From positions 23,831-87,830 of the forward strand of contig JALWYQ010000037.1 in NCBI GenBank assembly GCA_027078365.1: a stretch of 64,000 nucleotides of DNA, written 5' to 3'. Below are positions 29,304 through 52,772 of the stretch, in pieces. Positions within the stretch are counted from its first letter, which is position 1; each line of letters starts with the position of its first letter. The DNA is from Phycisphaerae bacterium. GTDB taxonomy: Bacteria > Planctomycetota > Phycisphaerae > Sedimentisphaerales > Sedimentisphaeraceae. The notes under the pieces are model-generated. The model ran no database searches. It saw nothing but the letters and a program-made list of their open reading frames with translations, and was not told the origin of the DNA. Both the position numbers and the translations under genes were made by a program.

Positions 29304-29316
29304 ACTAAGGTTAAGA

Positions 29317-31404: not shown

Positions 31405-31405
31405 A

Positions 31406-32878: not shown

Positions 32879-32879
32879 T

Positions 32880-33071: not shown

Positions 33072-33185
33072 TTGATGCACTCCATTGCAATTATTTATAT
33101 ACACAAATGACAAAATGACGCTTTTTAGTCAAGCGGATTGTCGTTGTTAATTTGAAAAAAGAAAGATAGTTGCTATATGTAGCAA

Positions 33186-33338
33186 TTATTTCGCAGGGCT
33201 CTCAATTGTCGTGAGCCTTTTTCCGCAATTTCTGCACACCCTATAGCGTATGATTTTCTGATTTGTTTTTCGTGTTGACGTGACATAAAAGTGACGACAC
33301 CCGCACTTTCTGCACTCAAGACCTGCGTTGCTAGACAC
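33186..33338 (-). CDS. Small zinc-ribbon protein (50 aa)
   Basis: This gene was found by reading the gap after the terminase gene. A GTG start at 33338 has AAAGGAG eight bases upstream and lies 4 bases after the terminase stop. The product contains LECRKCGCRHFYVTSTRK and YRVCRNCGKRLTTIE: two CxxC pairs about 22 residues apart, resembling the NrdR-type zinc ribbon. It is likely a DNA- or protein-binding adaptor for packaging or late transcription. The coding frame is supported by the zinc pattern and the ribosome site. Confidence 0.75.
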   Translation of the reverse strand: MSSNAGLECRKCGCRHFYVTSTRKTNQKIIRYRVCRNCGKRLTTIESPAK

Positions 33339-33342
33339 TTGG

Positions 33343-35736: not shown

Positions 35737-35842
35737 GTGTTCATATCTCTAGGTAGTACCTAAACTTATGACAATCGTTCTATCGATGTTGCATTTTATC
35801 AACACTGTTACTCAATAGATGTTTCAGGTAGTTTCTCTGTTT

Positions 35843-36004
35843 CTAGCTCGAATTCTCTTGGCTCTCGTCCATCTCTTGCAGTGTTTTGTTTATCTCTGTA
35901 ACTGTGTGGTAGAGAGATATTGATACAGAGTCATTTCCATTGCCCCACAATGCCTTAGCTACCCACAAAAGAATTCTAATCGCCAGTTTCCGCCTTGCAT
36001 TCAT
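35843..36004 (-). CDS. Small amphipathic prophage protein (53 aa)
   Basis: Too short to be obvious, this frame has an ATG at 36004 with AGGA about 10 bases upstream. It follows the terminase small subunit gene, whose stop is 3 bases away. Product: MNARRKLAIRILLWVAKALWG then a polar helix (TEITEINKTLQEMDE-like) and SS end. The hydrophobic, basic N-terminus could sit on the membrane. No family recognised. Confidence 0.5.
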   Translation of the reverse strand: MNARRKLAIRILLWVAKALWGNGNDSVSISLYHTVTEINKTLQEMDESQENSS

Positions 36005-36006
36005 GC

Positions 36007-36336
36007 TTATATCCTTTCAGTTTTTCCAATAGTCTTGTGTTTTCCGTTATAATGCCGGTCGTTTGCGTTCCAACCGTTAACAATCGCCTTGTCGAATCTA
36101 GGATGTTTCCGCCGCCAGTCTGCGATAGATCCCTCGGTTACGCCAAATACCAACGCTAACATTCTGGTAGAGGCTCGCCAGCGAGAACATAGCTCATATG
36201 CGACCGCATCTAATCGCTCGTGATACATGCTTGGTCGGCCACCGCTCTCTTTCCGAGGCTTCCGCTCTGGATCTGGGCGAAATCCTCGATACAACCTCGC
36301 CGGCTGACCAACGCTATTGTGTCGCTGATTGCTCAT
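36007..36336 (-). CDS. Terminase small subunit-like DNA-binding protein
   Basis: The 109 aa product has a basic, Pro/Arg-rich N-terminus followed by an HTH (RMLALVFGVTEGSIADWRRKHPRFDKAIVNGW). This resembles the DNA-recognition domain of phage small terminases, where the HTH is followed by W-x-x-x-HP-x-F. AAAGGAG lies nine bases before the ATG. It is the first gene of the late block, upstream of the large subunit. Confidence 0.75.
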   Translation of the reverse strand: MSNQRHNSVGQPARLYRGFRPDPERKPRKESGGRPSMYHERLDAVAYELCSRWRASTRMLALVFGVTEGSIADWRRKHPRFDKAIVNGWNANDRHYNGKHKTIGKTERI

Positions 36337-36423
36337 TTCAAGTAGCTCCTTTCACTAAAAACACGCTTTAAAGCCCCAAAAACGGGCATAATTCAAGAGT
36401 TAAAAAATCCAAAGTTAATATTT

Positions 36424-37335
36424 CTATTTTTTATCGTTTTTTTCTGCTTGTAAGTCATTGTCCTGTAAGTCTTTATCTAACACCCCAAGAGTTGTACTAG
36501 TCGTTACGTTAATTATGTCCAGTTCATTTACCTTGTTAAAAGTAGAACCATCATCGATGTGTGAATAAATCGCCGTAGTGTTGATGCTTGAGTGTCCAAG
36601 TTGAGCCTGAACAAGCTGTAAATCTTTCGTTTGCCAGTTCGTGTGAGTCCCCAGTGTGTGCCTAAACTTGTGAGGGTACAATCCTTTCAATAACCCTGCC
36701 CTCCTGCCAATTGTCATCACTCTAAACCACAGCCCCTTGCGTGTGTATGGCTTGTGTCTCCTGTTATAAAGCAGCGGTTTCCTATAATTAGTCTCTCCAA
36801 CCCCCTTGGGTAACAATTTAGGGCGGACGTTTTCAACATAATAGGCGATCAATTCAGCCACTTTATTGGGAATCATCACAGTTCTAAGCTTATTCCTCTT
36901 TCCCCGAACCCAAACATAGGGTCTTTTGCAGTCTGGCTCTACAAAAGATGTCTGGTCCACTCTCAAGTTGCAAAGTTCACTATTGCGCAGTCCAGTAGCT
37001 AGTAGCATATTACAAATGAAAAGATCCATGAACCGAGTAGTGCTGGGCGAATGCTCGTACTCGGATGCAAGAAACACAATCAGCTTGCTAAGCTCCGATT
37101 TGGAAAGAAACTTGTCTGGCGTGATGATCCAGTTACTAACCGACTTCGCACCGCCCACCGAGATCCGCTCGATCTCAGCCGCCATCCTGCGAGTGTAGTC
37201 ATATCCCTTGCTGTATCGCTCAAGCATTTTCTCAAGGAAGCGAACATCACTCTTATAAAGCTCAAGCCTATCGGCATTCTGCAAAGCCTTGGCAACCTTC
37301 CTGCTCAAAGCCAAGCTTGGAACATACTCAGCCAT
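36424..37335 (-). CDS. Second tyrosine recombinase (XerC/D-like)
   Basis: The product is 303 aa. The catalytic set is visible: Arg in TGLRNSELCNLR, HxxR in PHKFRHTLGTH, LGHSSINTT, and Tyr in TAIYSHID. It begins with a SAM-like N-domain. GGGAGG lies seven bases before the ATG. It is placed between early genes and terminase, far from the att sites. It is distinct from the tRNA-linked integrase and could resolve dimers, invert DNA or be a remnant integrase. Confidence 0.9.
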   Translation of the reverse strand: MAEYVPSLALSRKVAKALQNADRLELYKSDVRFLEKMLERYSKGYDYTRRMAAEIERISVGGAKSVSNWIITPDKFLSKSELSKLIVFLASEYEHSPSTTRFMDLFICNMLLATGLRNSELCNLRVDQTSFVEPDCKRPYVWVRGKRNKLRTVMIPNKVAELIAYYVENVRPKLLPKGVGETNYRKPLLYNRRHKPYTRKGLWFRVMTIGRRAGLLKGLYPHKFRHTLGTHTNWQTKDLQLVQAQLGHSSINTTAIYSHIDDGSTFNKVNELDIINVTTSTTLGVLDKDLQDNDLQAEKNDKK

Positions 37336-37380
37336 TGCCAGCCTCCCTGCATCTATCGCATCGATCCATCGATACCCCTT

Positions 37381-37614
37381 CTATTGGTCCTGCATGAAAC
37401 TAATAACATCAGGTCGCGACAGCACCTCTTCTGCTGCACGAATCTTGAACGGCTTAACCGCCTTATTGTAAGCATGCTTGCCGTGCAGTCCCTGCGACAC
37501 ATACCGCATAGTGCTCTCGTTAATCTCTGCCGCAACCTCCGGAGCCTCCATCAAAATCGCAAACCGCTCAAGAATCTCATCCTCAAAAATCTCAATCGCC
37601 TTTTTGCTATCCAT
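37381..37614 (-). CDS. Small early prophage protein, unknown
   Basis: The 77 aa helical, acidic product (MDSKKAIEIFEDEILERFAILMEAPEVAAEINESTMRYV) is not a recognised family. It lies 3 bases after the MazG stop and 45 bases before the recombinase gene, in the same leftward transcript. An excisionase or recombinase accessory role could be tested, since it immediately precedes the second recombinase. Confidence 0.6.
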   Translation of the reverse strand: MDSKKAIEIFEDEILERFAILMEAPEVAAEINESTMRYVSQGLHGKHAYNKAVKPFKIRAAEEVLSRPDVISFMQDQ

Positions 37615-37617
37615 CGC

Positions 37618-38187
37618 CTAGCAATCCCCAGTCGTATTCTCAAGCACCTTACGCTCAACATCCAGCCTACGATTCTCTGCCGCCTCTTGCGTAAATTTTG
37701 ACGGATACCGAACCATCAGCTTGTTAATATTCGCCGCAAGCACATCGTGATAGTCAATCCTTAGCACCATGCAAAAACTAACCAGCATCGCAACAATCCT
37801 CTTAAGTCTGCGAAGCAAAAGAACAGACTCCTGAAACGTATCAACGTCTCGCAAAAAGTCTCCAGCCTCAACAGCCAACACTCTCGCCAAATAGTCATCA
37901 GAGATTAGACTATCAAGCTCGTATTCTTTGATGTCGCGGTCTAGCGTCTCGCAGGCCAGAGCCACATACCAGAAGCAATCACCAATCTCCTCTTTCACAT
38001 TAACCATATCAAGTTTAGATCCATAGAACATGTGCTTCTTGTAAGCGTCAAGCAATTCCGCAGACTCCGTCACCAGCCCAATCGCCGCGTGTAAAAGCAT
38101 ATAGTGATAATTAAACTCCTCGCCATTGTGCGGGTCGATTTTAGAACTAGTTCTTTTCGCCAACCTTTGATATTCTTTAAAATCCAT
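37618..38187 (-). CDS. MazG-like nucleotide pyrophosphohydrolase
   Basis: The product is about 189 aa from an ATG at 38187 with AGGGG upstream (the open frame extends further but is out of phase with a real protein). The metal-binding pattern is GLVTESAELLDAYKKH followed by MVNVKEEIGDCFWYVALACE, the ExxE...ExxD signature of all-alpha NTP pyrophosphatases. Phage MazG proteins hydrolyse dNTPs or alter nucleotide pools during infection. A second helical half (about 100-189) is unassigned. Confidence 0.82.
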   Translation of the reverse strand: MDFKEYQRLAKRTSSKIDPHNGEEFNYHYMLLHAAIGLVTESAELLDAYKKHMFYGSKLDMVNVKEEIGDCFWYVALACETLDRDIKEYELDSLISDDYLARVLAVEAGDFLRDVDTFQESVLLLRRLKRIVAMLVSFCMVLRIDYHDVLAANINKLMVRYPSKFTQEAAENRRLDVERKVLENTTGDC

Positions 38188-38188
38188 G

Positions 38189-38572
38189 CTAACCCCTTTT
38201 AATTTCCCAATTCTTACCATCACAAACAATCGCACGACCATTCTTAACAAGCACCGCCTCGCCGGCTTCAAACTCCAAACACAAATCGTGCTTGATACAC
38301 AAGCAACCATGCTCATCGTGAACACTCCCCTTACATCTCTTGCAGGTGTACTGCTGCGTCTTAACAAACGCTTTGCGTTTCTTTCGTTTCTCGCCAACAT
38401 CAAATAGTTTTTTACAAGCCATCTTAATCCTTTCCACAATAGCGACAAAACGCCAGTCAAAGCGGCAAAGCCAATACAACGCTAAGGCCTCTATGTACAG
38501 AATCATAAGGCTTAACGAGAAAGACATTACTATAGTCCTTACAGTCCTAGCTCCAGCATCTGGATCAATCAT
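38189..38572 (-). CDS. Membrane-anchored zinc-ribbon-like protein, unknown
   Basis: The 127 aa product has a hydrophobic N-terminal segment (IVMSFSLSLMILYIEALALYWLC) and a C-terminal part with cysteine pairs (YTCKRCKGSVHDEHGCLCIKHDLCLEF). Two starts are possible. ATG 38572 has GGAG and AAAGGGA upstream; ATG 38422 also has AAAGGA and would give only the 77 aa zinc domain (MACKKLFDVGEKRKKRK). Either or both may be used. No family recognised. Confidence 0.6.
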   Translation of the reverse strand: MIDPDAGARTVRTIVMSFSLSLMILYIEALALYWLCRFDWRFVAIVERIKMACKKLFDVGEKRKKRKAFVKTQQYTCKRCKGSVHDEHGCLCIKHDLCLEFEAGEAVLVKNGRAIVCDGKNWEIKRG

Positions 38573-38585
38573 TCCCTTTAGCTCC

Positions 38586-38873
38586 TTAAACAGTTATTGT
38601 TATGCTGTCTATTTCCACGTCTGTTAATGATTGTAGAAGCTCGTCTGCATCGTCAATCAAAAAGCTCTTAATCCCTTTGCTATAATATTTTTTATTCAGG
38701 AATTCATAAAAAGAAATTGGCATCGGTATATCCTTTTTCATATCTCTTGCGACCGACATTATCCTGCTGACTTCGTTGAGGTTTGCACAAACTATATAGC
38801 CACCACCCCTAGCCGATTCTTTGATTAAGTCGGTGGTCTTTCCTGATCTTCTACCAGACCTATATACTTTCAC
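38586..38873 (-). CDS. Mini P-loop NTPase (95 aa)
   Basis: The product contains YRSGRRSGKTTDLIKES (Walker A) near its start and KSFLIDDADELLQ (Walker B, hhhDD) near residue 75, with no room for further domains. The GTG at 38873 with AAGGAG six bases upstream is preferred to the TTG codons before it. It is much smaller than known phage ATPases. It could be a packaging, recombination or helicase-loader-like accessory, or a regulator that only binds nucleotide. Confidence 0.65.
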   Translation of the reverse strand: MKVYRSGRRSGKTTDLIKESARGGGYIVCANLNEVSRIMSVARDMKKDIPMPISFYEFLNKKYYSKGIKSFLIDDADELLQSLTDVEIDSITITV

Positions 38874-38995
38874 GATCAACTCCTTAACTGTGATTTAAGT
38901 TCTCTTAATTGTTCTCATGCCGTGAGCTTGCGTGAAAGTCTCGTTACCAAGAAACATGCCCAACATTCCAACACCTCACATCAAAACAAAAAAAC

Positions 38996-39122
38996 GGCTC
39001 TGGCAGGAATCGAACCTGCACGTGGCATCACTCGGCTTCTACGCCACCGGCTTCGCGTGATTGCTGCCGATACGCATCACGTCTACTCTACTTCACCGCC
39101 TGCAATCCAATGCTACAGAGCC
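38996..39122 (-). ncRNA. tRNA-like RNA, 127 nt, oversized
   Basis: On the reverse strand, GGCUCUG pairs perfectly with CAGAGCC (7 bp acceptor). Directly stacked on it is a 5-bp T-arm (GCAGG/CCUGC) with canonical T-loop UUCGAUU. The interior (92 nt) does not fold as a normal cloverleaf. I see a weak D-like arm (GCA/UGC), a long arm (CGUGAU/AUCACG with GGC/GCC below it) and a 5-bp hairpin (GUGGC/GCCAC). The 3' end is followed by G and seven U, as in a terminator; CCA is not encoded. No clear anticodon. It could be a degenerate tRNA with a huge variable region or a tmRNA-derived structure. Confidence 0.6.
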
Positions 39123-39304
39123 AACCCTTTTCTTATGGCCGCCTTTGCCTCGCCAGTCAGCATCTTTAATTCTAAAGACGCATGGACCAGCCTAGCCCTA
39201 ACCTTCTTAATCATCTCTTTGCCCTCTAAATGAGTTAACGCCCCAACACACAAGTTTATGTCACAGCATACCTCATCAATCTTTTCAATCTGTTCTTTTG
39301 TCAT
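39113..39304 (-). CDS. Small early prophage protein, unknown
   Basis: The product is 63 aa (MTKEQIEKIDEVCCDINLCVGALTHLEGKEMIKKVRARLVHASLEL), predicted all-helical. GGAG lies eight bases before the ATG. Its stop codon (UAG) falls at nucleotides 8-10 of the downstream tRNA-like RNA, so processing of that RNA would truncate this mRNA. No family recognised. Confidence 0.6.
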   Translation of the reverse strand: MTKEQIEKIDEVCCDINLCVGALTHLEGKEMIKKVRARLVHASLELKMLTGEAKAAIRKGLAL

Positions 39305-39393
39305 AGCTATACTCCAATAAAATCATCAAAATAAACCCTCTCACCCAACCGCCCAAGCCATAAGGCTCAGACGGTGGTTCGTGGGAGGTTAAT

Positions 39394-40041
39394 TTATGCC
39401 AATTTAGACTGAGCAACCATCGCCTTAGTATCACTGCTCTGCTGGGCATTTAGTGCTGCCTTAAGCATCGCCCAGTTCTCCGGCGTCGCCACAGTCTTAA
39501 ACTTCTCAATCGCAGCGACCGTCTCATCGAAAGCCCTGCTGCTCACTATGCCAGCCTCATCAAGCTCATCTCTAATCTTAGCGACATCCTCAGGCGTAAA
39601 GTCTTGAGGTCTCTTGCGAAGCAAACCAACCAGCCCCGCCAACGGAGCAACGCCCATAGCAGTCAGCCCGATCGAGACAAGCCCAGTCTCGCCAAATAGT
39701 TGCTCTTCAAGCTTCCGCGACTGCTCAACGTTAAACATCGCAACATCTTTCGCAATGCCATAGTCAAGATTGTCAGTCTCAATCAGTTGCTGGTAAGCGT
39801 TCTGGTTAATCGTGTGCGCAATCTCAACCTTGCGAGCGAGATCTTCCGCCATCGCAAGATTTGGATACAACGCCGGCTTGAAATCGTTAGCATCAGCGAT
39901 GCCAGACGAAACAACATAATCCACAGCCATCGGATCAAGCTTAGAAAGTGTAGCCACCTTGCTAACAGCCACACACCCAACCGCCGAGATCAACATCACC
40001 AGCGAAAAACACACAGTTAAAATTTTCGTTCTCTTTTTCAT
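39394..40041 (-). CDS. Prophage lipoprotein
   Basis: The 215 aa product has a type II signal peptide (MKKRTKILTVCFSLVMLISAVGC, lipobox SAVGC) and then a mostly helical, Ala-rich domain. A short hydrophobic stretch (LVSIGLTAMGVAPLAGLVGLLRKR) lies near residue 130. AAAGGA precedes the ATG. Lipoproteins made from prophages often block superinfection or assist lysis (Rz1-like), but this one is too long for Rz1. It is located in the early block, so expression soon after infection is likely. Confidence 0.75.
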   Translation of the reverse strand: MKKRTKILTVCFSLVMLISAVGCVAVSKVATLSKLDPMAVDYVVSSGIADANDFKPALYPNLAMAEDLARKVEIAHTINQNAYQQLIETDNLDYGIAKDVAMFNVEQSRKLEEQLFGETGLVSIGLTAMGVAPLAGLVGLLRKRPQDFTPEDVAKIRDELDEAGIVSSRAFDETVAAIEKFKTVATPENWAMLKAALNAQQSSDTKAMVAQSKLA

Positions 40042-40052
40042 TTAGAATCCTT

Positions 40053-40232
40053 TCAAGATTTAGTTTCAAACTTCTCACAAGCCTTGCCCTTAGCCGCAAC
40101 CGTCGAAAAGCACCCTGGCTTAAACTCCTGCAGCAGACACCTGTATTTTTTAACCACAGTAACCTTACCCCCAAGCGTCATAGTGTGCGGGTCCAGATAG
40201 GCATGGCAACAATCCTTACAGTCCTTACTCAT
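40053..40232 (-). CDS. Small Cys-rich prophage protein
   Basis: The product is about 59 aa (MSKDCKDCCHAYLDPHTMTLGGKVTVVKKYRCLLQEFKPGC then ACEKFETKS). It contains six cysteines in CxxCC, C and C-x9-C spacing, suggesting a zinc knuckle. The ATG at 40232 has GAGG upstream. It overlaps the next membrane protein gene. No family recognised. Confidence 0.6.
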   Translation of the reverse strand: MSKDCKDCCHAYLDPHTMTLGGKVTVVKKYRCLLQEFKPGCFSTVAAKGKACEKFETKS

Positions 40233-40410
40233 TTTGCACCTCAATCCCCTTAGCGTTTAAATTATGCAGAGGCTTGATCATAACGCGATTGTCAACGCCA
40301 TCGCCAAGCTTGCAGCTAAGCACGAAAAGCCCAATCAAAAGAGCAATCGCAATCGCCAGAAAAGAATAATAAACCAAGTTAAAAATCCGATCTGCTTCTT
40401 GATGTTTCAT
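40225..40410 (-). CDS. Small single-TM prophage protein
   Basis: The 61 aa product has one membrane helix (LVYYSFLAIAIALLIGLFVLSC) and a polar C-terminus. GAGGAAA precedes the ATG. It overlaps its neighbours on both sides in a chain of tiny genes, so translation is probably coupled. It could be an antiholin-like or host-takeover membrane peptide. Confidence 0.6.
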   Translation of the reverse strand: MKHQEADRIFNLVYYSFLAIAIALLIGLFVLSCKLGDGVDNRVMIKPLHNLNAKGIEVQNE

Positions 40411-40553
40411 TTGTCCGTTTCCTCTGAATAAAAGTTCTCACCAAACCGCTCAACAAACACCTCTCTGCCAAGATAACACTCCCAGCAAAGTTGCTCACCG
40501 TTTCGTTCAACTTGCCCAATTCTAAGCGGATGATTAGCACAACAGTTCTCCAT
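40407..40553 (-). CDS. Small zinc-finger-like protein (48 aa)
   Basis: Found by reading between larger genes. The ATG shares its A with the preceding stop (TGATG) and the stop overlaps the next start. The product is MENCCANHPLRIGQVERNGEQLCWECYLGREVF..., with CC-x2-NH and CWEC as a probable metal site. The coupled overlaps on both sides are strong support that it is translated. Confidence 0.65.
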   Translation of the reverse strand: MENCCANHPLRIGQVERNGEQLCWECYLGREVFVERFGENFYSEETDK

Positions 40554-41011
40554 CACCAAGGCAGCTCATCAACGCAAATCTGTGCCTCTTGCTCTGGTTG
40601 TTTAACCTGCGACTCATCAATCTCGCCGCGAATAAGCTGGCCAATCTCTGGATCTAACTCGCGATAAGCCGCAGAAACACTCCAAGCATTCTTGCGATCC
40701 TCAACGCTACCATTCTCAACCAGCCAAGAGTAATAATCCTTGCAAGTGATTTCCCTGCCAGTTGTCACTGGCTCTTTGTATCCACCAAAGTTATCCATCG
40801 ATTTGCGAAGTATCGCACGCACGCTGGTAATCTTTGGCCGGCTTGGGTCCTCCTTGATGCGGTGGGCCTGAACTGCCGCCACAAAAGCGTCAGGCTTCTC
40901 GCTCCCAAACGCAACAAACCAATCGTCAATATCGAGCTTTGAAAAATTGCACTTGCTCCACCTTGCTGCAACCTCCTCCTCAAAGATTTTTGCAAACTCA
41001 ATTTGCAACAT
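40553..41011 (-). CDS. Early prophage protein following the initiator, unknown
   Basis: The 152 aa product starts MLQIEFAKIFEEEVAARWSKCNFSKLDIDDWFVAFGSEKPDAF and is mainly helical. It is encoded directly downstream of, and overlapping, the replication initiator-like gene, where lambda-type phages place a helicase loader (gpP). It has no Walker motifs, so a gpP-like or DnaC-inhibitor role is only a positional guess. Confidence 0.6.
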   Translation of the reverse strand: MLQIEFAKIFEEEVAARWSKCNFSKLDIDDWFVAFGSEKPDAFVAAVQAHRIKEDPSRPKITSVRAILRKSMDNFGGYKEPVTTGREITCKDYYSWLVENGSVEDRKNAWSVSAAYRELDPEIGQLIRGEIDESQVKQPEQEAQICVDELPW

Positions 41012-41612
41012 GACTACCCCCCTGATCTGCTAGAAATTCAGCAATAGAATTCTTAGTAAATGCCGCCGCCGCTTCACGGTCAATTTGGTCAAACGATTTA
41101 GCACGTGGTTTAGAAGAAAAATCAGAAGAAAAATGGTGGGTTCCCTTTCCCTTATATTTTTCCTTTATATTTTTCTCCTTATATGAATTAACATTTTTGT
41201 TAATACCCCTTAACATTTTTGTTAATACCCTCTTATCATTTTTGTTAACACCCTTAACATTTTTGTTAATAGGGGCTTCTACTTGTTTTTCCATAGGATT
41301 GCACCCCGAAAAGGCCGTTGGAAGCATGTGAATCTCACGGTAATTTGCCCTCTCTCGAAACTGCTTAATCTCTATAAATCCAGCGTCCGAGAGCTGTTTT
41401 AAAAGGCGTGAAACTTGAATCTTTGTAACCCCAAAAAGCCTCGCAAAATACCCATTGCTAGCCCAGCAAAAACCCTCAGCCAAACACAGCGCAGACACCT
41501 CCGCAAACAAAAGCTTAGCAGTGCTACTAAGCTCATTACAATACCTCACAGCAGGAGGCAATTGAGCCGTAAACGCCGGTCTATTTTCTCTATCATTCTC
41601 AAGAGCACTCAC
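40998..41612 (-). CDS. Replication initiator-like HTH protein (lambda O-like position)
   Basis: The product is about 204 aa. The N-terminal winged helix of HTH_36/replication-initiator type reads LPPAVRYCNELSSTAKLLFAEVSALCLAEGFCWASNGYFARLFGVTKIQVSRLLKQLSDAGFIEI. The GTG at 41612 with GAGGAGG seven bases upstream overlaps the stop of a tiny upstream gene (GTGA). The linker region (residues about 115-150) is encoded by four iteron-like repeats, so the origin is probably inside the gene, as in lambda O. The C-terminal part is short and Lys-rich. Confidence 0.75.
   Translation of the reverse strand: MSALENDRENRPAFTAQLPPAVRYCNELSSTAKLLFAEVSALCLAEGFCWASNGYFARLFGVTKIQVSRLLKQLSDAGFIEIKQFRERANYREIHMLPTAFSGCNPMEKQVEAPINKNVKGVNKNDKRVLTKMLRGINKNVNSYKEKNIKEKYKGKGTHHFSSDFSSKPRAKSFDQIDREAAAAFTKNSIAEFLADQGGSHVAN
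41188..41269. repeat. Four palindromic iterons, candidate phage replication origin
   Basis: TTAACATTTTTGTTAA occurs at 41188-41203, 41210-41225, 41233-41248 (one T/A change) and 41254-41269, joined by TACCCC-like spacers at a 21-23 bp period. Each unit is itself a TTAACA/TGTTAA inverted repeat. An AT-rich tract lies beside it at about 41140-41187. The repeat period is not a multiple of 3, so it is selected as DNA rather than as protein. Confidence 0.8.
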
Positions 41613-41758
41613 CGCCCAGACCTCCTCATACGAAACGAATAAAGACAAACCACAGAGACCAATCTTTTAAGTCTGCCAAAACGGTCGCGTTCCCACTCCT
41701 TTGTCTCGAAGCACCTCTTCTCCATCATGTCTTTTTTAACTCTTCTTAGATGTCCCAC
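41609..41758 (-). CDS. Small basic protein before the initiator (49 aa)
   Basis: A GTG at 41758 with GGGAG upstream begins a short basic protein: MGHLRRVKKDMMEKRCFETK then EWERDRFGRLKR. Its stop overlaps the initiator start (GTGA), so it probably couples translation of that gene. No family recognised. Confidence 0.55.
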   Translation of the reverse strand: MGHLRRVKKDMMEKRCFETKEWERDRFGRLKRLVSVVCLYSFRMRRSGR

Positions 41759-41771
41759 AGCAACTCCCTTT

Positions 41772-42212
41772 CTAAAACAACATCTCCTGTTTGTTTGCGA
41801 TCTGGCGGTTTCGTTTGTTATACCTATGAGCCGCCAACGCCCTACCAGCCTCGCTCACAGAGCTAACCCGCTGCCGCTTCTCGTGAGCCTTCCTAGCCGC
41901 ATCGACACCAGCCCTAGCCAGCCGTCTTTGCTCCTCAAACTCCCGCCACTCCTGCCTCGTAGCCATTCTCCAGTAACAAACCAACCTGCCCGCAGGTCCA
42001 GTAGCTTTCTTAGCAAGCACAACCACGCCAGCCTCGCGCAGCTCCTTAACTCGCGGCGTCACTTTATTGATTTCCATCTTAAGCAGCGAAGCAATCTCGA
42101 CATTACAACACTCACCCAGCTCGTAAATTGCAGACACAACCTCAAACCGTCTGCCGCCAAGATTATCTAGAATGCTCTGATAAGCCCTGATGCTTGTATC
42201 TGCTACGCCCAC
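41772..42212 (-). CDS. Winged-HTH early regulator
   Basis: The 146 aa product has a MarR/ArsR-like winged helix (RRFEVVSAIYELGECCNVEIASLLKMEINKVTPRVKELREAGVVVLAKKATGPAGRLVCYW) followed by a long charged helix (RQEWREFEEQRRLARAGVDAARKAHEKRQR). The GTG at 42212 follows AGGGGG by eight bases. The family is usually a DNA-binding regulator, but in phages such proteins can also act in replication. It is located directly upstream of the initiator genes. Confidence 0.72.
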   Translation of the reverse strand: MGVADTSIRAYQSILDNLGGRRFEVVSAIYELGECCNVEIASLLKMEINKVTPRVKELREAGVVVLAKKATGPAGRLVCYWRMATRQEWREFEEQRRLARAGVDAARKAHEKRQRVSSVSEAGRALAAHRYNKRNRQIANKQEMLF

Positions 42213-42223
42213 AACCAAACCCC

Positions 42224-42388
42224 CTACCAAGTAACAACAGAAGTCAACGTTGCCGCAGCAAGCCAGTAAACAACCTTGCGCCAATCTCCGTGCGACACAT
42301 AAACAAGTGCAGCACAAACATCTAGCACAATCAAAATCGTAGGAAAAACACGACCATCCACAGCCAAGACCTCAACAACAAAACACAT
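42224..42388 (-). CDS. Small membrane protein, unknown
   Basis: The 54 aa form begins at the ATG at 42388 (MCFVVEVLAVDGRVFPTILIVLDVCAALVYV) and has two hydrophobic helices. A longer frame from a TTG at 42445 would read through the shared-loop hairpin. Because the hairpin ends 4 bases before the ATG, I favour the short form, though the ribosome site is poor. No family recognised. Confidence 0.5.
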   Translation of the reverse strand: MCFVVEVLAVDGRVFPTILIVLDVCAALVYVSHGDWRKVVYWLAAATLTSVVTW

Positions 42389-42392
42389 AAAA

Positions 42393-42423
42393 CGTGCTGT
42401 GCTACTACGCTTCACACAGCACG
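42393..42423 (-). promoter_or_regulatory. Leader hairpin A with shared loop
   Basis: CGTGCTGTG (42393-42401) pairs perfectly with CACAGCACG (42415-42423). The 13-base loop (CTACTACGCTTCA on the given strand) is identical to that of hairpin B at 43307-43333, whose stem is a different sequence. On the leftward transcript it is followed by UUUU and then the AUG at 42388. Confidence 0.75.
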
Positions 42424-42514
42424 CCGAGTTATTCGCGGCAGACAACCACTCTCGTGGCAGTACATGAGGCTTCCCTTTCTTGGAAAAACGTCTGCCGCTT
42501 CTGCTATCTCAAAA

Positions 42515-42913
42515 TCAACCACCACTACTCACCTGCTCAGCCACAACCCGAATAGCCGCTGCCTCAACAGCGTCCTCCGCCGAAGTCCGAGATGTAAACC
42601 CGCAAAGCTCAATCTCTCGCCCACAAAACTCAGCCCGAACCCGCCAACCACTCTTAAGCTTGCGATAAGAAGCTCTATAGCGAATGCCAAGGAACTGCGA
42701 GAATTGATCCAACGCCTTTGGATTGCGAGCAAGAAGCTCGTCAACAACAGCATCACTAGAACAAACAATCGCCCTACAAAACGCCTCAACACTCGACCTA
42801 CCGCCAAGCCTACCAGACCTGTAAAACGCTCGAAATGCCTGCACCTGAAACCGCCCACGCTTACGAATGCGGTCCCACTGGTCAGGTGTTGTTGTGATGC
42901 TCGCCCCACCCAT
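42515..42913 (-). CDS. Early prophage protein, unknown
   Basis: The 132 aa basic product (MGGASITTTPDQWDRIRKRGRFQVQAFRAFYRSGR...) ends in GFTSRTSAEDAVEAAAIRVVAEQ. GAGGTGAT lies upstream of the ATG. An overlapping hydrophobic frame (42529-42945) looks like a shadow. The Arg-rich N-terminus suggests nucleic acid binding, but no fold is recognised. Confidence 0.6.
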   Translation of the reverse strand: MGGASITTTPDQWDRIRKRGRFQVQAFRAFYRSGRLGGRSSVEAFCRAIVCSSDAVVDELLARNPKALDQFSQFLGIRYRASYRKLKSGWRVRAEFCGREIELCGFTSRTSAEDAVEAAAIRVVAEQVSSGG

Positions 42914-42917
42914 CTGA

Positions 42918-43277
42918 TCACCTCGCTGTCGCTAAGATTGCGCAACCAATCGCCCAGAAAAAGCGGACGATTCTGTTTTTTGGAGCTTTCGGCGTAACCT
43001 TTGAATCGATCTCTCTCGAAGGTCTATTTGATCTCGCAACCATCGTACATCGACGCAAGACGTTGACTCTCGCAATTTCTTTTCCAACGCCGTCTTCACA
43101 GACAGCGATAATCTTATAGCAGCCAATACGATTTCCAGCTCTTTGTCCATATCGCCCCCGTGAAATTCTAGATACTCGAATCTTGCTCGCCACCTCTGGG
43201 CTAAGCAAACTCTCAAGCCCAACCTCATCAACCAACTCTTGAGTAGCTTCTCTAATCAAATCTTCCGTGACCTGCAT
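42918..43277 (-). CDS. Early prophage protein, unknown
   Basis: The 119 aa product has a helical acidic N-terminus (MQVTEDLIREATQELVDEVGLESLLSPEVASKIRV), a basic middle (SRGRYGQRAGNRIGCYKIIAVCEDGVGKEIARV), and a hydrophobic end (IVRFFWAIGCAILATA) that could anchor it in the membrane. The middle and end overlap another plausible gene. Hairpin B sits 30 bases upstream of its ATG. Confidence 0.6.
   Translation of the reverse strand: MQVTEDLIREATQELVDEVGLESLLSPEVASKIRVSRISRGRYGQRAGNRIGCYKIIAVCEDGVGKEIARVNVLRRCTMVARSNRPSREIDSKVTPKAPKNRIVRFFWAIGCAILATAR
42932..43150 (-). CDS. Overlapping-frame coiled-coil protein (72 aa)
   Basis: Nested out of phase in the 42918-43277 gene, an ATG at 43150 with GGGGGCGAT upstream reads MDKELEIVLAAIRLSLSVKTALEKKLRES then VRWLRDQIDLRERSIQRLRRKL. 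This is a regular heptad-like charged helix, unlike a random shadow. One or both frames may be expressed. Confidence 0.45.
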   Translation of the reverse strand: MDKELEIVLAAIRLSLSVKTALEKKLRESTSCVDVRWLRDQIDLRERSIQRLRRKLQKTESSAFSGRLVAQS

Positions 43278-43306
43278 AACTTCGCCTCCCTGCTAAGTTT
43301 TTAAAT

Positions 43307-43333
43307 GGTGGGGCTACTACGCTTCACCCCACC
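43307..43333 (-). promoter_or_regulatory. Leader hairpin B with shared loop
   Basis: GGTGGGG (43307-43313) pairs with CCCCACC (43327-43333) around the same 13-base loop as hairpin A, 30 bases upstream of the ATG at 43277. The stems of A and B have no sequence in common, but both remain fully paired. Confidence 0.75.
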
Positions 43334-43394
43334 CGCAACCATGAACAAGCCAGATTGTCGCATCCGGCTTAACCGACATAACCCCTCTCTTCTC

Positions 43395-43454
43395 CACTCA
43401 CTGGCGGGAACAATTAATCCGTAACTGTCCATGGCCTAACGCCGCCAGCGAGTG
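43395..43454. repeat. Imperfect inverted repeat between early genes
   Basis: CACTCACTGGCGG (43395-43407) and CCGCCAGCGAGTG (43442-43454) pair over 13 positions with one mismatch, separated by 34 bases. It lies in the 245-base gap (43278-43522) that also holds hairpin B. I see no gene there. Confidence 0.6.
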
Positions 43455-43522
43455 CCTTTGGAGGAGGAAGAGAATCGTTTGTGCGGGTCGCCACAACCCA
43501 CAACAAAACAAACCTTGTATTG

Positions 43523-43789
43523 TTATCCGCTTTGGCGTCTGCGGCGTTTGATTTCTCCGATTGGCCTGCCTGTAATGGCTGATTTGCGCATGATCTCCGC
43601 GACCGAACTGGCAAGAAACCGCTCTTGCCCTGCAACGGTAAAGCTTTGCAGACCGTCCGCCTTGAGCTTTGCAAGAATGTGATGCTTGTATAGGGTTGAC
43701 TTCGAAAACCCCATCATCGCACCAACCTCTTGAATTGTGAGACCAAGCTCAAACGTCTGGTTACGAATTTTAAACTTATTTTTCTGCAT
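43523..43789 (-). CDS. Excisionase/MerR-like HTH protein
   Basis: The 88 aa product (MQKNKFKIRNQTFELGLTIQEVGAMMGFSKSTLYKHHILAKLKADG) has an HTH of the MerR/Xis-fold type and a basic C-terminus (RPIGEIKRRRRQSG). GGAGG lies nine bases before the ATG at 43789. An early regulator or excisionase is plausible. It is the second gene of the leftward early operon. Confidence 0.65.
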   Translation of the reverse strand: MQKNKFKIRNQTFELGLTIQEVGAMMGFSKSTLYKHHILAKLKADGLQSFTVAGQERFLASSVAEIMRKSAITGRPIGEIKRRRRQSG

Positions 43790-43825
43790 ACTAACTGCCT
43801 CCAATCCAATAGGGGTTAATGCTCT

Positions 43826-44020
43826 TTAACTCACCAACACCTGTTTTTCTTGCTTTTCCGCCCGTAATTCTGCTATCTTATAGTTGCACGCTTCAAGGAG
43901 GAGACGGGCCGCGGCGTCATGAGGCTTGCGATCCATTAACCCCGCGACCTCATTAACTGCTGTTAGGAGGTCGGGGTTGTTCTTTTCGTGAAAAGCTAAA
44001 TATTTTATGTTTGTTTTCAT
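43826..44020 (-). CDS. Ribbon-helix-helix (Arc-like) repressor candidate
   Basis: The 64 aa product shows a beta strand (NIKYLAFHE), helix A (NPDLLTAVNEVAGLMDRKP) and helix B (HDAAARLLLEACNYKIAELRA), lengths and spacing as in phage Arc/Mnt. It is the first gene of the leftward early operon and sits next to TTGAG arrays at 10-bp period on both sides of the divergent promoter region, the type of tandem site RHH dimers bind. Family membership is inferred from the secondary-structure pattern only. Confidence 0.65.
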   Translation of the reverse strand: MKTNIKYLAFHEKNNPDLLTAVNEVAGLMDRKPHDAAARLLLEACNYKIAELRAEKQEKQVLVS

Positions 44021-44023
44021 GTC

Positions 44024-44182
44024 TCAAGACCTCTCAATTATTCTCAATAGTGCAATTTTAGTCAGCCTCAAAACTATTACAAGCTAATAATTGAGGATAA
44101 TTGAGAATTTTTGAGTGTATAATGCGTAACAGTATGAGTTATAAAGAGATACGGGAATTGAGAATTTTTGAGAAATTTCGAG
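44024..44182. promoter_or_regulatory. Phased TTGAG operator arrays in divergent control region
   Basis: TTGAG occurs at 44091, 44101 and 44111 (exact 10-bp period), again at 44158 and 44168 with TCGAG at 44178, and as its complement CTCAA at 44024, 44034 and 44043. A TATAAT (44118-44123) abuts the middle triplet. The sites flank the starts of the leftward early operon and the rightward gene at 44198. Sites on one DNA face every helical turn suggest cooperative binding by a small dimeric repressor. Confidence 0.72.
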
Positions 44183-44197
44183 AAATGCAGGCGAAAC

Positions 44198-44560
44198 ATG
44201 GCTAGATCAGACACAGAAGCAATGTTGGGAGCTAATTTGCCCAGAGATTTCGTTGATATATTCTGGACAAAAGCTATGCCAGGTAGCTCCAAAGCGAGTA
44301 AGGCTCAAGTAGTATTGGCGATGGCTAACGCTTGGGTAGATATGCCAAATGAAGTCAAAAAACATTACCTCTTTCCCGAAGATGAAAGCGATGGGTTTGA
44401 TGACGTCATAGACGCTAAAGTCCGATCCGCAATAAAAAAAATGCTCCCAGAGCTAACCAAGAGCATTTTAAGTGAGATTAAAGGCTACAACCTCATGGAC
44501 GAAGCTCTAAAAGACGCCGAAGAAGACCGCGCAGACAATGTTCGTCACAGTGCCGGATAA
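44198..44560 (+). CDS. First rightward prophage gene, unknown (immunity-region protein)
   Basis: The product is 120 aa (MARSDTEAMLGANLPRDFVDIFWTKAMPGSSKASKAQVVLAMANAWVDMP...), with an acidic middle and a helical C-terminus (KVRSAIKKMLPELTKSILSEIKGYN). It is controlled by the divergent operator region, so it may be the lysogenic regulator. No HTH is clear. Its 3' end resembles a second fragment at 48149-48301, marking the edges of a cargo block. Confidence 0.65.
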   Translation: MARSDTEAMLGANLPRDFVDIFWTKAMPGSSKASKAQVVLAMANAWVDMPNEVKKHYLFPEDESDGFDDVIDAKVRSAIKKMLPELTKSILSEIKGYNLMDEALKDAEEDRADNVRHSAG

Positions 44561-44794
44561 GAATCTTAGTGATAATCTTCACGGCTCTATGCCTGTAATG
44601 GTGCTTACAAAACTGAATAGGCTGACTTTTCTTAACTGACATGTAACTCTCCGTAAAACAAGGTGCAAACTAAAACGGGACAAGCATAACCATTAATTAA
44701 GTATAACTATGAACTAGGTATAACCACTCAATATCAGCACCCGTCAGATTAACCAAATAACCCAAAAAGCAATATTTAAAAGAGGGTAATTAGT
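44561..44794. other. Gap before ParB-like gene
   Basis: No gene is seen in these 234 bases. AGTATAACT and GGTATAACC occur about 17 bases apart near 44700-44725 in an AT-rich stretch and could be promoter elements of the ParB-Dam pair. No strong terminator follows the 44198 gene. Confidence 0.3.
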
Positions 44795-46261
44795 ATGCAA
44801 AATTTTCATGATTGGAAAGAAAGAAAACTGTCAATTAACAAGCTCTTCCTAGATAACAAAAACCCTAGACTCCCCATATCGTCTAGGAACCTAACTCAAA
44901 CCGATCTCCTCTCTGAATTAGTAGCAAAAGACGATGTCTATGAGCTTGCCAAAACAATTACAGACAAAGGCTATATGCCTATTGAAAGTTTAATTGTTAT
45001 AGAAGAAAGCGGCAAAAAGGTTGTAGTGGAGGGCAATCGTAGACTCTCCAGCCTAAAATTGCTCCTAGATCCAAATAAAATAAGCGGGACAATATCAAGA
45101 AAGTTCAGAGCTTTATCACAGAAAATTGATGCCGAAAACATCAAGAAGGTGAAAGTAACAATTGCCCCTTCTCGCGAGGCCGCCAACGTCTACATTGCTA
45201 TGAAGCACACTAAAGGCGGCGGCACAAACAGGTGGAACCATATTGAACAAGCAAGATTCTACAAGGCAATATACAGCGAAGGAAAGACTACATCTCAAAT
45301 AGCAAAAGATTTCTCTATTTCAAACAGCGAAGTAATTAAAGAATTAAGACTACTAACCATGTACGAATTGGCTTGCGAACTAGACCTGCCAGAAGATATT
45401 GCTGCCAAAGTCAGAGACTCTCGCCACTTTCCATCTACCACTCTCGAAAGAATATATGAAAACCAAGACTATAGGGATTGGCTCAGCCTTGACTTCAAAG
45501 GCGAATCTATGGAATGTAAAACAAGTCGGGCTGAATTTAATAAAGGTTACTCTAGGATAGTAACAGATATTGCTTTAGGAAAAATAACATCTCGATCCCA
45601 CAACGACAGAGCTGCTGCCCAAGAATATCTTAAAGAGAATAAGGACTATAAGCCTAGCCCAAGCAAAAAAGAGAAATTCACTTACTCTTGTTTTGCCGGC
45701 TTTAAACTGCTGTCTGATAAAAAAACAGAGAAAGCATCAGCCCCCAAAAAGAAATCAGCTCCCCAAAAAAACCAGAGGCTGGTACCTAGCAAATTCACTT
45801 GCAATACCAGCTGTAACAGGCTTAACGACGTTTTCGCTGAATTCAAGAAAATGAAGATTAACGAAAGCCCTAACACGATAGCTATAATGCTTAGGTGTAT
45901 CCTTGAAATGTCACTTAATCATTACGTTGAAAAAATGGGCTACAGCAAAAAAATCGCCGAATTCTATAGAAGAAAACAGAAAAAAAAGAACGACTGGAGT
46001 CCGTCCCTTAATCAAGTCGTCAATTATCTTTTAGAGCAAGATACTATTGTTTGCGGTAAAATAGAACCTGAAGTAATAAAATCAATAAAAAATATGGCCA
46101 AAGACAATTCTACCTTCTATAATACTGACATGTTAAATGCATTCGTCCACAATAGATTTGTTATTGCTGACGAAAGAGTGCTAAGAGGTTTCTGGGAGCA
46201 ACTCGAACCTCTATTTAAAATCGTGTTGAATAAAGAATATTACGAAAACGAAGAAGGATAG
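44795..46261 (+). CDS. ParB/Srx-domain protein, cargo
   Basis: The product is 488 aa. The N-terminal ParB/sulfiredoxin-like fold reads NKLFLDNKNPRLPISSRN...DVYELAKTITDKGYMPIESLIVIEESGKKVVVEGNRRLSSLKLL. The GNRRL motif marks the nucleotide/DNA-processing site of this superfamily. An HTH-like helix pair follows (TTSQIAKDFSISNSEVIKELR), then a Lys-rich linker and a helical C-terminal domain with LNAFVHNRF. The family includes defence-associated nucleases as well as segregation proteins. GAGGG precedes the ATG. The dam gene starts 3 bases after the stop, so they form an operon. Confidence 0.78.
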   Translation: MQNFHDWKERKLSINKLFLDNKNPRLPISSRNLTQTDLLSELVAKDDVYELAKTITDKGYMPIESLIVIEESGKKVVVEGNRRLSSLKLLLDPNKISGTISRKFRALSQKIDAENIKKVKVTIAPSREAANVYIAMKHTKGGGTNRWNHIEQARFYKAIYSEGKTTSQIAKDFSISNSEVIKELRLLTMYELACELDLPEDIAAKVRDSRHFPSTTLERIYENQDYRDWLSLDFKGESMECKTSRAEFNKGYSRIVTDIALGKITSRSHNDRAAAQEYLKENKDYKPSPSKKEKFTYSCFAGFKLLSDKKTEKASAPKKKSAPQKNQRLVPSKFTCNTSCNRLNDVFAEFKKMKINESPNTIAIMLRCILEMSLNHYVEKMGYSKKIAEFYRRKQKKKNDWSPSLNQVVNYLLEQDTIVCGKIEPEVIKSIKNMAKDNSTFYNTDMLNAFVHNRFVIADERVLRGFWEQLEPLFKIVLNKEYYENEEG

Positions 46262-46264
46262 AGC

Positions 46265-47131
46265 ATGGCAAAAACCTATAGCCCACTTAGGTACCCAGGC
46301 GGTAAAAGTGCACTGATGCCCTTTTTGATGGAAACGATCTACTTGAATCAGCTTCAAGGGTGTACGTATATAGAACCTTTCGCCGGAGGTGCTGGCGCGG
46401 CTTTAGGACTGTTGTTCGGCGAGCATGTAGACAAGATTGTAATAAACGATGTTGATTTTTGTATATACGCCTTTTGGCATTCAATTATGAATAATACGGA
46501 TAAATTCCTTGCCCTCGTAAACGATACAGATGTCAATATTGAAGAATGGCACAAACAACGAGAAATATACAATAAGTGCGACAAGAGATCGTTATTGAAG
46601 GTGGGTTTTGCAACCTTCTTTCTCAATCGCTGCAATAGATCTGGAATTCTCAAAAAGGCAGGGCCAATAGGCGGTAAGGGCCAGAGTGGTAACTGGAAAA
46701 TAGATGCAAGATTCAACAAAAAAAATCTCATAGAACGCTTAGAGCGCGTCGCTTCCTACGGCGAGAGAATAGCTGTGTCCAATTTGAACGCAAACGACTT
46801 ATTGATAAACATCAACTCACAAAAGTCAAATGAGAATATATTAGTTTATCTAGACCCACCTTACTATAACAAGGGAGCAGAGCTATATATAAACCATTTC
46901 CTGCACGACGATCACGCCAACCTGTCCACCCAAATGTGCAAATACGAAAGCTTCAAATGGTTAATTTCTTATGACAATGTAACTCAAATAAAAGACATGT
47001 ATCAAGAAATGAACATAATTGAATTTTCACTAAACTACCACACCAGCAACCCTCGCAAGGGTAGCGAAATCTTGATCTTTAACGACACCATTAAAGTCCC
47101 TAGTACCCTTCTGGGTTCAAAGACAGCGTAA
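46265..47131 (+). CDS. dam: DNA adenine methylase (D12 class)
   Basis: This N6-adenine methyltransferase is 288 aa. It opens YSPLRYPGGKSALMPFL, has EPFAGGAGAALGLLF (SAM motif I), and YLDPPYYNKGAELY (catalytic DPPY motif IV). It is likely to methylate a short site such as GATC. AAGGA precedes the ATG within the end of the ParB-like gene. Encoded in a ParB-like/methylase operon within the prophage, it may protect phage DNA or form part of a restriction-type cassette. Confidence 0.92.
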   Translation: MAKTYSPLRYPGGKSALMPFLMETIYLNQLQGCTYIEPFAGGAGAALGLLFGEHVDKIVINDVDFCIYAFWHSIMNNTDKFLALVNDTDVNIEEWHKQREIYNKCDKRSLLKVGFATFFLNRCNRSGILKKAGPIGGKGQSGNWKIDARFNKKNLIERLERVASYGERIAVSNLNANDLLININSQKSNENILVYLDPPYYNKGAELYINHFLHDDHANLSTQMCKYESFKWLISYDNVTQIKDMYQEMNIIEFSLNYHTSNPRKGSEILIFNDTIKVPSTLLGSKTA

Positions 47132-47245
47132 GATGTCCACTTTCTCGTCATTTCTTGCCATAACTTAGCACAGAGAAACACGACACAACCAATTACAACC
47201 AAACAATTTACGAAACAAACAATCAAGACTCTTAGAAACACAGTA

Positions 47246-47869
47246 TTGCCCTACCATGAATTCGCAAAAGATCTTGTTAGAAACTGGCTAGTTGAACATA
47301 AATTTAAAGGTTGGAACAAAACGGAAACCACTGGCAGGCCCGTGACACAAGAAATGAAAGCAAAACAAGCCGCATTCATTGCGAAAGAGCTCGCAGACCA
47401 TTCAAAATGGCGGTCGCATGGAAGATCTTTGAAAATAAAAAATCTGAAAGAAATAGGATTGCGAATAACAAAGGTGGATGAAACCCCAGATTTTGCCGAT
47501 GTAGTGCATAGAATCCAAACGGTATGCGGGTTACTGTTTGACAACACCAGCATTTTTAAGGTTTTTGCAACCAAAGATCGCAAGATATTTAGGCAAGAGA
47601 TGCAAGGTGGCAGCAGGCATCAAGTTCCGCAGTTTCACAATAGCCCGTCTGCCGCATCAGTTGTGAAGTATTGCCCAAACTGCCGTACCAGACATAGTTA
47701 TTACGCCAAGTTCATTAATAATCCACAGATAGACGCTGATTTTGCAAGAAAAGGAGTGAAACCGCTCCCTAAAAATGCTAAAATAAAGTGTGCTTGTGGT
47801 GTTGAGATTGATTTATCTGAATGGAAAAAAAAAGTAGAAATGGATTTTGGAAGGAAGTTGATTTTTTAA
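47246..47869 (+). CDS. Possible 5'-truncated Clp-fold serine protease remnant with zinc ribbon
   Basis: The 207 aa product begins at a TTG. It has a helical segment (HEFAKDLVRNWLVEHKFKGW), then KELADHSKWRSHGRSLKIKNLKEIGLRITKV, and a C-terminal zinc ribbon (YCPNCRTRHSYY...IKCACGVEIDL). The SHGRxL plus LGL-x-(V/I) pattern resembles the C-terminal part of SDH/SppA-like Clp-fold proteases, but the half that would carry the catalytic Ser is absent. The frame stays open for about 80 bases upstream. Either a truncated remnant or an unrelated small protein. Confidence 0.4.
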   Translation: MPYHEFAKDLVRNWLVEHKFKGWNKTETTGRPVTQEMKAKQAAFIAKELADHSKWRSHGRSLKIKNLKEIGLRITKVDETPDFADVVHRIQTVCGLLFDNTSIFKVFATKDRKIFRQEMQGGSRHQVPQFHNSPSAASVVKYCPNCRTRHSYYAKFINNPQIDADFARKGVKPLPKNAKIKCACGVEIDLSEWKKKVEMDFGRKLIF

Positions 47870-47890
47870 TTTATATTGTGGGGCATAGAA

Positions 47891-48061
47891 ATGGAATTGG
47901 AAGGAACAACATTTATTGACGACACAGTGACAACTTTTCTAGTGGAGACAAAAGACGGCAAATTTGCCGAAGTAACAGCCTGTCCTCCGGATGTTATTAG
48001 GATGAAAGCAGAAAGAATAATGGTAGAAGATGAGTATTATAGATATAAAACCACAACTTGA
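47891..48061 (+). CDS. Small acidic protein, unknown
   Basis: The 56 aa product (MELEGTTFIDDTVTTFLVETKDGKFAEVTACPPDVIRMKAERIMV) is encoded 21 bases after the truncated protease-like gene and just before a strong terminator. The start at 47891 has a weak GGGGC site. It could be a partner or antidote of the cargo genes. No family recognised. Confidence 0.5.
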   Translation: MELEGTTFIDDTVTTFLVETKDGKFAEVTACPPDVIRMKAERIMVEDEYYRYKTTT

Positions 48062-48083
48062 TCATCTACAAACTTAGACACTT

Positions 48084-48112
48084 AAGACCCCATCTAATTG
48101 GGGTCTTTTTTT
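48084..48112 (+). terminator. Rho-independent terminator of the ParB-Dam cargo operon
   Basis: AAGACCCCA (48084-48092) pairs with TGGGGTCTT (48099-48107) around a 6-base loop, followed by a run of T to 48112. Confidence 0.9.
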
Positions 48113-48148
48113 ATGCGATAAGCGAATTAGCAAGCATCTAAACAATTA

Positions 48149-48301
48149 GCAATCAAAGACATGCTCCCAAAACTAACCAAAACGCTCAAGGATGAAATTT
48201 TCCGCAGCAAAGCCAAATCTATTGTAGATAAATCTTCTCAAGCTGCTCAAGCAGCCCAGCAGCAAACTCTGGACAAGAGTGGCTCAACAGGAGCCGCTTA
48301 A
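48149..48301 (+). pseudogene. 3' fragment of a paralogue of the gene at 44198
   Basis: In frame from 48149 the sequence reads AIKDMLPKLTKTLKDEIFRS then KAKSIVDKSSQAAQAAQQQTL and ends at a TAA at 48301. The first part matches AIKKMLPELTKSILSEIKGY of the 44198 gene, with about three quarters of the first 36 bases identical. A TAG lies just upstream in frame. It is a fragment left behind when the ParB-Dam block was inserted or duplicated, although a 46 aa start at 48161 cannot be ruled out. Confidence 0.65.
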
Positions 48302-48550
48302 TCTTTTCGGCTAGTAAATGTAGTTCAAAGTTGCGGTTTTCCATAACAATATATCAAAGAATCACAAAGCCAGATTAACCAAGCGACAAAAGAACAAAAC
48401 GGTCTTGCAAAAAGAATGCCTCGGCAGAACGAGGTCCACACCTATTTTAGCAGCCGCCTTTCTTTGTATTTGATTAAACCAACATCTCAGGGTAAAATGT
48501 GCGTCCATTAGAAACATTTACTTTATTGAACTTAGAGACCAAGAAATAAA
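48302..48550. other. Gap before the methyltransferase cassette
   Basis: No gene is seen. The 13-mer TGCCTCGGCAGAA (48417-48429) repeats that at 15411-15423. Upstream of the next ATG there is only AGAGACCAAGAA, a weak ribosome site, which may keep expression low. Confidence 0.35.
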
Positions 48551-52728: not shown

Positions 52729-52772
52729 CTGGCAGTGTAGAAGTCGTGAGTTCGAGTCTCATCGGCTCCATT
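52729..52772 (+). repeat. Prophage attachment site attR
   Basis: Perfect copy of the 44-bp attL repeat. Only the 3' part of a tRNA is present (no acceptor 5' strand or D arm), so it is not a functional tRNA. It is the displaced host 3' end. Confidence 0.97.

Follow-up and report, generated by a model that had tools for sequence, protein, structure and literature searches.

Two prophage hairpins with one loop and unrelated stems belong to an apparently new hairpin family of otherwise unrelated phages

Phage RNA hairpins that are read through their loops, such as boxB and put, opened the way to understanding transcription control. The putL and putR sites of HK022 are ~70 nt long, comprise two stem-loops, resemble each other in sequence and need no phage protein (PMC9378689). 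The LoaP-dfn UNCG hairpin lies in the leaders of Bacillus polyketide operons, where it is read by a NusG paralogue and alters termination (PMC12691694).

Examination of a 64,000-nucleotide stretch of DNA from a Phycisphaerae bacterium (hereafter the window) revealed a pair of hairpins. Exact counts and stem pairing bear out the initial annotation, which had described identical 13-nt loops on unrelated perfect stems. On the plus strand, CTACTACGCTTCA occurs exactly twice within the window, at 42402-42414 and 43314-43326, between perfect stems of 9 bp (CGTGCTGTG/CACAGCACG) and 7 bp (GGTGGGG/CCCCACC). The RNA (mRNA) side of both hairpins is the minus strand, on which the loop reads UGAAGCGUAGUAG; upon folding, its first U pairs with its last G and an 11-nt loop, GAAGCGUAGUA, is left unpaired. 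Hairpin 1 (42393..42423, minus strand) combines the stem CGUGCUGUG/CACAGCACG and the U-G pair with this loop, is followed on its 3' side by UUUUAUGUGUUUUG and scores 37.1 bits with covariance model R1. Hairpin 2 (43307..43333, minus strand) carries the same loop and U-G pair on GGUGGGG/CCCCACC, is followed by AUUUAAAAA and scores 38.6 bits. The 13-nt segments concerned (42402..42414 and 43314..43326, both minus strand and both UGAAGCGUAGUAG) correspond to UGAAGYDUAGUAR, which is conserved in other phages. Larger structures are predicted 5' of each hairpin, namely GCGGCAGAC/GUCUGCCGC around two small hairpins at 42433..42499 (minus strand; fold of 42360-42515, z -2.1) and a long stem, CACUCGCUGGCGG/CCGCCAGUGAGUG, at 43390..43475 (minus strand; fold of 43278-43522, z -3.3); they are unlike each other and neither is conserved elsewhere. 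Among all perfect hairpins of the prophage with a stem of at least 6 bp and a loop of 8-20 nt, this is the sole pair with a common 13-nt loop, the runner-up reaching 10. Across the 20 prophage regions used for comparison, the longest common loop had 12 nt and belonged to a palindromic repeat; otherwise it was at most 10. Chance is not a credible source of the pair.

The 38.8-kb prophage that harbours the hairpins (13939..52772) has at either end a 44-bp direct repeat from the 3' end of tRNA-Ala (13939-13982 and 52729-52772). Its integrase (14109-15356) adjoins the tRNA, and its minus-strand genes include those for portal, terminase, capsid protease and tape measure. The same prophage (13939-52772) also carries genes for a D12-class adenine methylase and an Eco57I-type restriction-modification system, and four iteron-like repeats of ~22 bp lie within its replication-initiator gene (window 41185-41290), as in lambda O. 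Both hairpins are located in one leftward (minus-strand) early operon, in gaps between minus-strand early ORFs, with a plausible Shine-Dalgarno (SD) sequence ~15-20 nt downstream of each. Hairpin 2 is followed by a 119-aa early ORF of no family (42918..43277, minus strand, SD GGGAGG), and hairpin 1 by an ORF with a GTG start that was read from the sequence as encoding a 45-aa predicted membrane peptide, of no Pfam family (42224..42361, minus strand). The initial claim that an early gene follows each of the two hairpins is correct here. Copies in other phages are not specific to early-gene leaders and are also found 3' of ORFs, tRNA genes and tmRNA genes. On the minus strand at window 43314-43379, a leader ORF of 20 codons is preceded by a strong SD and terminates within the hairpin 2 loop at two successive UAG codons (MSVKPDATIWLVHGCGWGEA, stop, stop); it is not conserved and was set aside.

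A search for the loop in relatives and in the host had been proposed with the initial annotation, and its outcome is divided: the host has no further copy and the loop is absent from host-order relatives, including prophages whose portals are up to 62% identical, but it is present in unrelated phages. With up to two mismatches, the host genome (2.29 Mb) has beyond the window pair only three sites, each with two mismatches and lacking a 6-bp stem. Prophages with a related portal (identity up to 62%) were detected in 24 of 161 genomes of the host order, and in the prophages and genomes of this order (~160) the hairpin is absent both by loop pattern and by covariance model. Neither a phylum sample of 392 genomes nor, with a broader model, a class sample of 293 genomes yielded the hairpin, and IMG/VR holds no homologue of the replication protein or of the 119-aa protein. 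The genome samples examined (order, class, phylum, Flavobacteriaceae type and Bacteroidales type) showed no chromosomal use of the loop by hosts. Several candidates were rejected: a one-mismatch match with a 6-bp stem upstream of AGAGGAAAAATG (L126) is antisense inside a sulfatase ORF, and matches in Flavobacteriaceae genomes (L248-L250) and in Bacteroidales (L464, L465) are AT-rich or antisense to coding sequence and were taken as chance.

Several otherwise unrelated phages (Flavobacteriaceae-like siphophages, crAss-like phages and others; composition and neighbours alone serve to assign a host to most IMG/VR carriers) carry hairpins with the loop GAAG(Y)(D)UAGUA on stems of 4-12 bp that differ in sequence. 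Both window hairpins show the features that define this family, namely the loop GAAGNNUAGUA, a U-R closure and a stem of 4 bp or more, whatever its sequence. One exact 15-mer match was obtained in IMG/VR (L012), on an 8-bp stem whose sequence is that of neither window hairpin, and the window pair has exactly its 13-nt loop. In relatives of L012, found via a neighbouring RuvC-like gene, the hairpin is kept at the same site, 3' of a phage tRNA, with the stems AAAGCCAG, AGATCAG and AAAGACTGA and the loops TGAAGCGTAGTAG, TGAAGTTTAGTAG and TGAAGTTTAGTAA, the last of which has a U-A closing pair instead of U-G. A bulged variant is present in L200. In a comparison of seven sequences, 7 of 8 pairs were changed on both sides with pairing complete, the complete (100%) pairing of stem-bearing sets being partly due to the choice of stem-bearing sites. 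Two more IMG/VR scans with one free loop position added at least ~20 further phage contigs with stems of 6-12 bp. G942 and G943 have a second copy outside the search patterns, in which GAAGTATAGTA is kept and C-A replaces the U-R pair; the invariance of the loop outside NN is partly imposed by these patterns and is not to be over-read. Copies are mostly one per phage. As for the crAss-like carriers, L306 has DNA similarity to named crAss-like genomes, and L286 has a tRNA/tmRNA block and proteins in common with them; no convincing copy was found in crAss relatives or in Cellulophaga phage Nekkels_1.

A CRISPR spacer provides independent evidence that phages carry the element. In the Bacteroidales genome sample the best match (29.9 bits, E 3e-4; L463, 1496-1532, loop TGAAGAATAGTAG) falls on a 37-nt spacer, the repeats of its array being 37 nt long as well. 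The spacer folds into an 8-bp stem with a U-G pair around GAAGAAUAGUA, and its NN is AA, outside the search patterns. A match of Acinetobacter phage Ab9 to this spacer was rejected, as it lies inside a coding gene with an E value of 0.5.

An unbiased stem test was based on IMG/VR contigs collected by the loop and a closing G-C only, any further stem being disregarded, which gave 100 non-redundant sites among the matches listed. At least five further Watson-Crick pairs were present at 15 of these 100 sites. Shuffling of the 3' arms among sites gave a mean of 0.27 stem sites and a maximum of 3 in 2000, and shifting of the arms by 1-2 nt gave 0-1. Only 1 of the 15 stem sites falls within an ORF of 80 aa or more, versus 60 of 79 stemless sites, and NN at stem sites is restricted to TA, TT, CG and TG (7, 6, 1 and 1 sites), while all seven variants scanned are represented among the stemless sites. 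Because of the shuffled- and shifted-arm controls, the ORF contrast and the NN restriction, loop, pairing and placement are taken to be under joint selection. For representative copies, the strand bearing the loop is the coding strand of the nearest genes 50 times versus 4, and two of these four opposite-strand cases are spurious antisense ORFs in the window. With unrelated stems kept paired in many unrelated phages and the loop on the sense strand, the earlier proposal of selection on RNA structure around a constant loop is sustained. Judged by this sequence comparison, the hairpins form an RNA-level family with selection on both loop and pairing.

The genomic context of the copies is diverse. 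Neighbouring tRNAs or permuted tmRNAs were found in the L012 group, L306, L321, L286, L320, L295 and L328: a tRNA lies just 5' of the hairpin in the L012 group and L320 and just 3' in L306, L321 and L286, and a permuted tmRNA lies beside it in L286, L306, L328 (37.5 bits) and L295 (24.3 bits). The tmRNA call in L295 is backed by a 5' tRNA-like motif and by a ...LAA-stop tag just before the hairpin. The phage permuted tmRNAs of L295 (5400-5990) and L328 (minus strand) have sub-gathering Rfam scores and tags ending in ...LAA-stop, with the hairpin directly 3'. The hairpin was rejected as tmRNA helix 5, as the tag ORFs of both stop earlier and the last tag codons start 29-39 nt before the loop; the window holds no tmRNA (tRNA-like domain, tag ORF). 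Other copies are located between ORFs with differing products, such as SSB, DNA polymerase, portal or terminase, or with no assigned product. The next gene codes for a replication protein in L309, L269 (single-strand DNA-binding protein) and L311 (DNA polymerase). At the stem end, 13 of 18 copies have at least five T per 7-nt window, modestly above the AT-rich flanks; in this window hairpin 1 has five T and hairpin 2 only three, and the copies preceding tRNAs, like hairpin 2, lack a U-tract. A terminator scan with a loop limit of 8 reported neither window hairpin and detected no terminator between them and their next gene, and in the L012 group a strong terminator lies ~60 nt downstream of the hairpin, with a gene start just beyond. 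Other hairpins were noted near phage tRNA genes. The crAss-like L419 (NC_055904.1) has two tRNA-adjacent hairpins (~6233-6272 and 6402-6435) with different stems and the common loop TTCGTTGTGAAAYGCG, perhaps another loop-conserved family, and L306 and L286 have repeated short hairpins, ACGTCGTGAGACG(T), between tRNA genes.

An all-against-all BLASTP of the proteins of 15 carrier genomes or fragments revealed no common family, the widest clusters joining 5. Of the partners that the initial annotation had suggested for the loop (a protein, a small RNA or an antitermination factor), one encoded by phages gains no support from sequence, because no phage protein is common to the carriers. The reading that we tentatively prefer, at somewhat less than an even chance, is a phage RNA module whose loop offers a docking site to a host-conserved trans factor and which sets the fate of RNA at a transcript boundary. 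Such a module would consist of any stem of ~4-12 bp, a U-R closing pair and an 11-nt GAAG(Y)(D)UAGUA cap within a sense transcript. The loop may fold compactly, its GAA facing AGUA in an arrangement resembling a loop-E or bulged-G motif. The docking partner would be the host-conserved factor rather than a phage protein, and the hairpin, bound or free, would set the balance of termination and read-through as well as the 3'-end fate of the upstream RNA. In the present prophage it would govern the share of early-operon transcription that enters two downstream gene blocks. Comparison of the copies agrees with such a module in that the loop is constant, the stem is free yet paired, and copies are intergenic or beside tRNA and tmRNA genes. 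Against it, a simple terminator role cannot cover all copies, since hairpin 2 and the pre-tRNA copies have no U-tract, and each U-tract case is just modestly above its AT-rich flanks. The lack of host chromosomal use of the loop in the sampled genomes is also awkward for a host partner, unless the factor is exploited by phages only. A broader version is conceivable and rather less than probable: a phage-wide RNA tag, whose loop unrelated phages of several bacterial groups converged on or kept because it docks onto host machinery of deep conservation, such as RNA polymerase, the ribosome or an RNase.

Of the alternatives, the one that survives best, although we consider it unlikely, involves no reading partner at all: the loop would be an exceptionally stable or fast-folding cap, like the UUCG and GNRA tetraloops, that convergently tops terminators or protective 3' hairpins. 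The U-rich tail in 13 of 18 copies, the free stems, the lack of a common protein and the position of copies 3' of stable RNAs (tmRNA in L295 and L328, tRNA in the L012 group) all fit such a cap. However, an 11-nt loop is costly when 4-nt caps exist, sampled host genomes also need terminators and are without the loop, and phages mostly have one copy rather than many.

T4 DNA polymerase and R17 coat protein act on translational operator hairpins, and the window hairpins, 15-20 nt upstream of an SD, could similarly bind a protein and so put the following gene under its control. The replication protein genes that come next in L309, L269 and L311 are in line with this. It is nevertheless improbable, as downstream genes vary across phages, tRNAs included, the hairpin ends the tmRNA transcript in L295 and L328, and no protein is common to the carriers. 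We likewise see little likelihood in a processive antitermination site (nut/put-like), at which the nascent hairpin would modify RNA polymerase and thereby let it read through the operon. One or two sense-strand copies per phage, here between early genes, and the strong terminator ~60 nt downstream in the L012 group with a gene just after are what such a site predicts, but no boxA lies near either hairpin, many copies are themselves terminator-like, and no terminator separates the window hairpins from the next gene.

A DNA-level element (an extruded hairpin, a recombination or nick site, or a protein-binding site) is strongly disfavoured. The inverted repeats are perfect, and rolling-circle and phage origins can have conserved loops on variable stems, but the orientation of the loop tracks neighbouring transcription 50 versus 4, copies lie beside tRNA and tmRNA genes, and the theta-type initiator of the prophage, with its iterons, lies elsewhere. 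Finally, the idea that the window pair arose by chance and has no relation to the copies in other phages has almost no probability left, for although GCTACTACGCTTCAC has many chance database matches, most of them stemless, stems at loop sites are far above the shuffled and shifted controls, which refutes chance for the family, and the window loop is the exact 13-nt loop of L012.

If the RNA tag reading is true, the hairpin would be a portable, stem-independent handle on transcript ends and read-through that is not used by host genes. Because the carriers have no detectable common protein, the partner may be a conserved host factor exploited by phages, perhaps one whose binding to RNA hairpins is not yet known. 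The family, which also marks phage tRNA and tmRNA transcripts, is spread over unrelated phages, is apparently unannotated and is small enough for quick testing.

GAA and AGUA, on facing strands in the hairpins, recall the sarcin-ricin or bulged-G loop motif, a resemblance in sequence only. Like tmRNA helix 5, with its stop codons in a hairpin loop, the hairpins have UAG-UAR in the loop, and some copies adjoin permuted tmRNAs, but in L295 and L328 the hairpin is outside the tag. As in intrinsic terminators, most copies have a stem followed by a U-rich tract; in contrast, the 11-nt loop is conserved here, and hairpin 2 and the tRNA-proximal copies lack the tract. The LoaP hairpin has a UNCG tetraloop (PMC12691694), whereas the window loop, GAAGCGUAGUA, contains no UNCG, and the RfaH ops element (GGCGGTAGCGT-like) was not matched at either hairpin with up to two mismatches. 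No carrier has a gathering-score match to Rfam 15 at the hairpin, the only overlaps being sub-threshold and at chance level, and no paper with the loop strings in a phage context was found in the literature searched, which excluded subscription journals. The HK022 put sites are alike in being present once or twice per phage, in early transcripts, and in needing no phage protein (PMC9378689), but here it is a single hairpin loop that recurs, on free stems, and the 5' structures of the copies differ. Lambdoid boxB is likewise a short phage RNA hairpin of early leaders with a conserved loop and a tolerant stem. Its loop, however, is of 5 nt with boxA as partner, whereas the present one has 11 unpaired nt and no common N-like protein was found, and boxA (CGCTCTTTA-like) has no match with up to one mismatch on the minus strand near the hairpins, which sets them apart from lambda nut. 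A loop-recognised phage hairpin is a known kind of element, of which the present family appears to be a new member.
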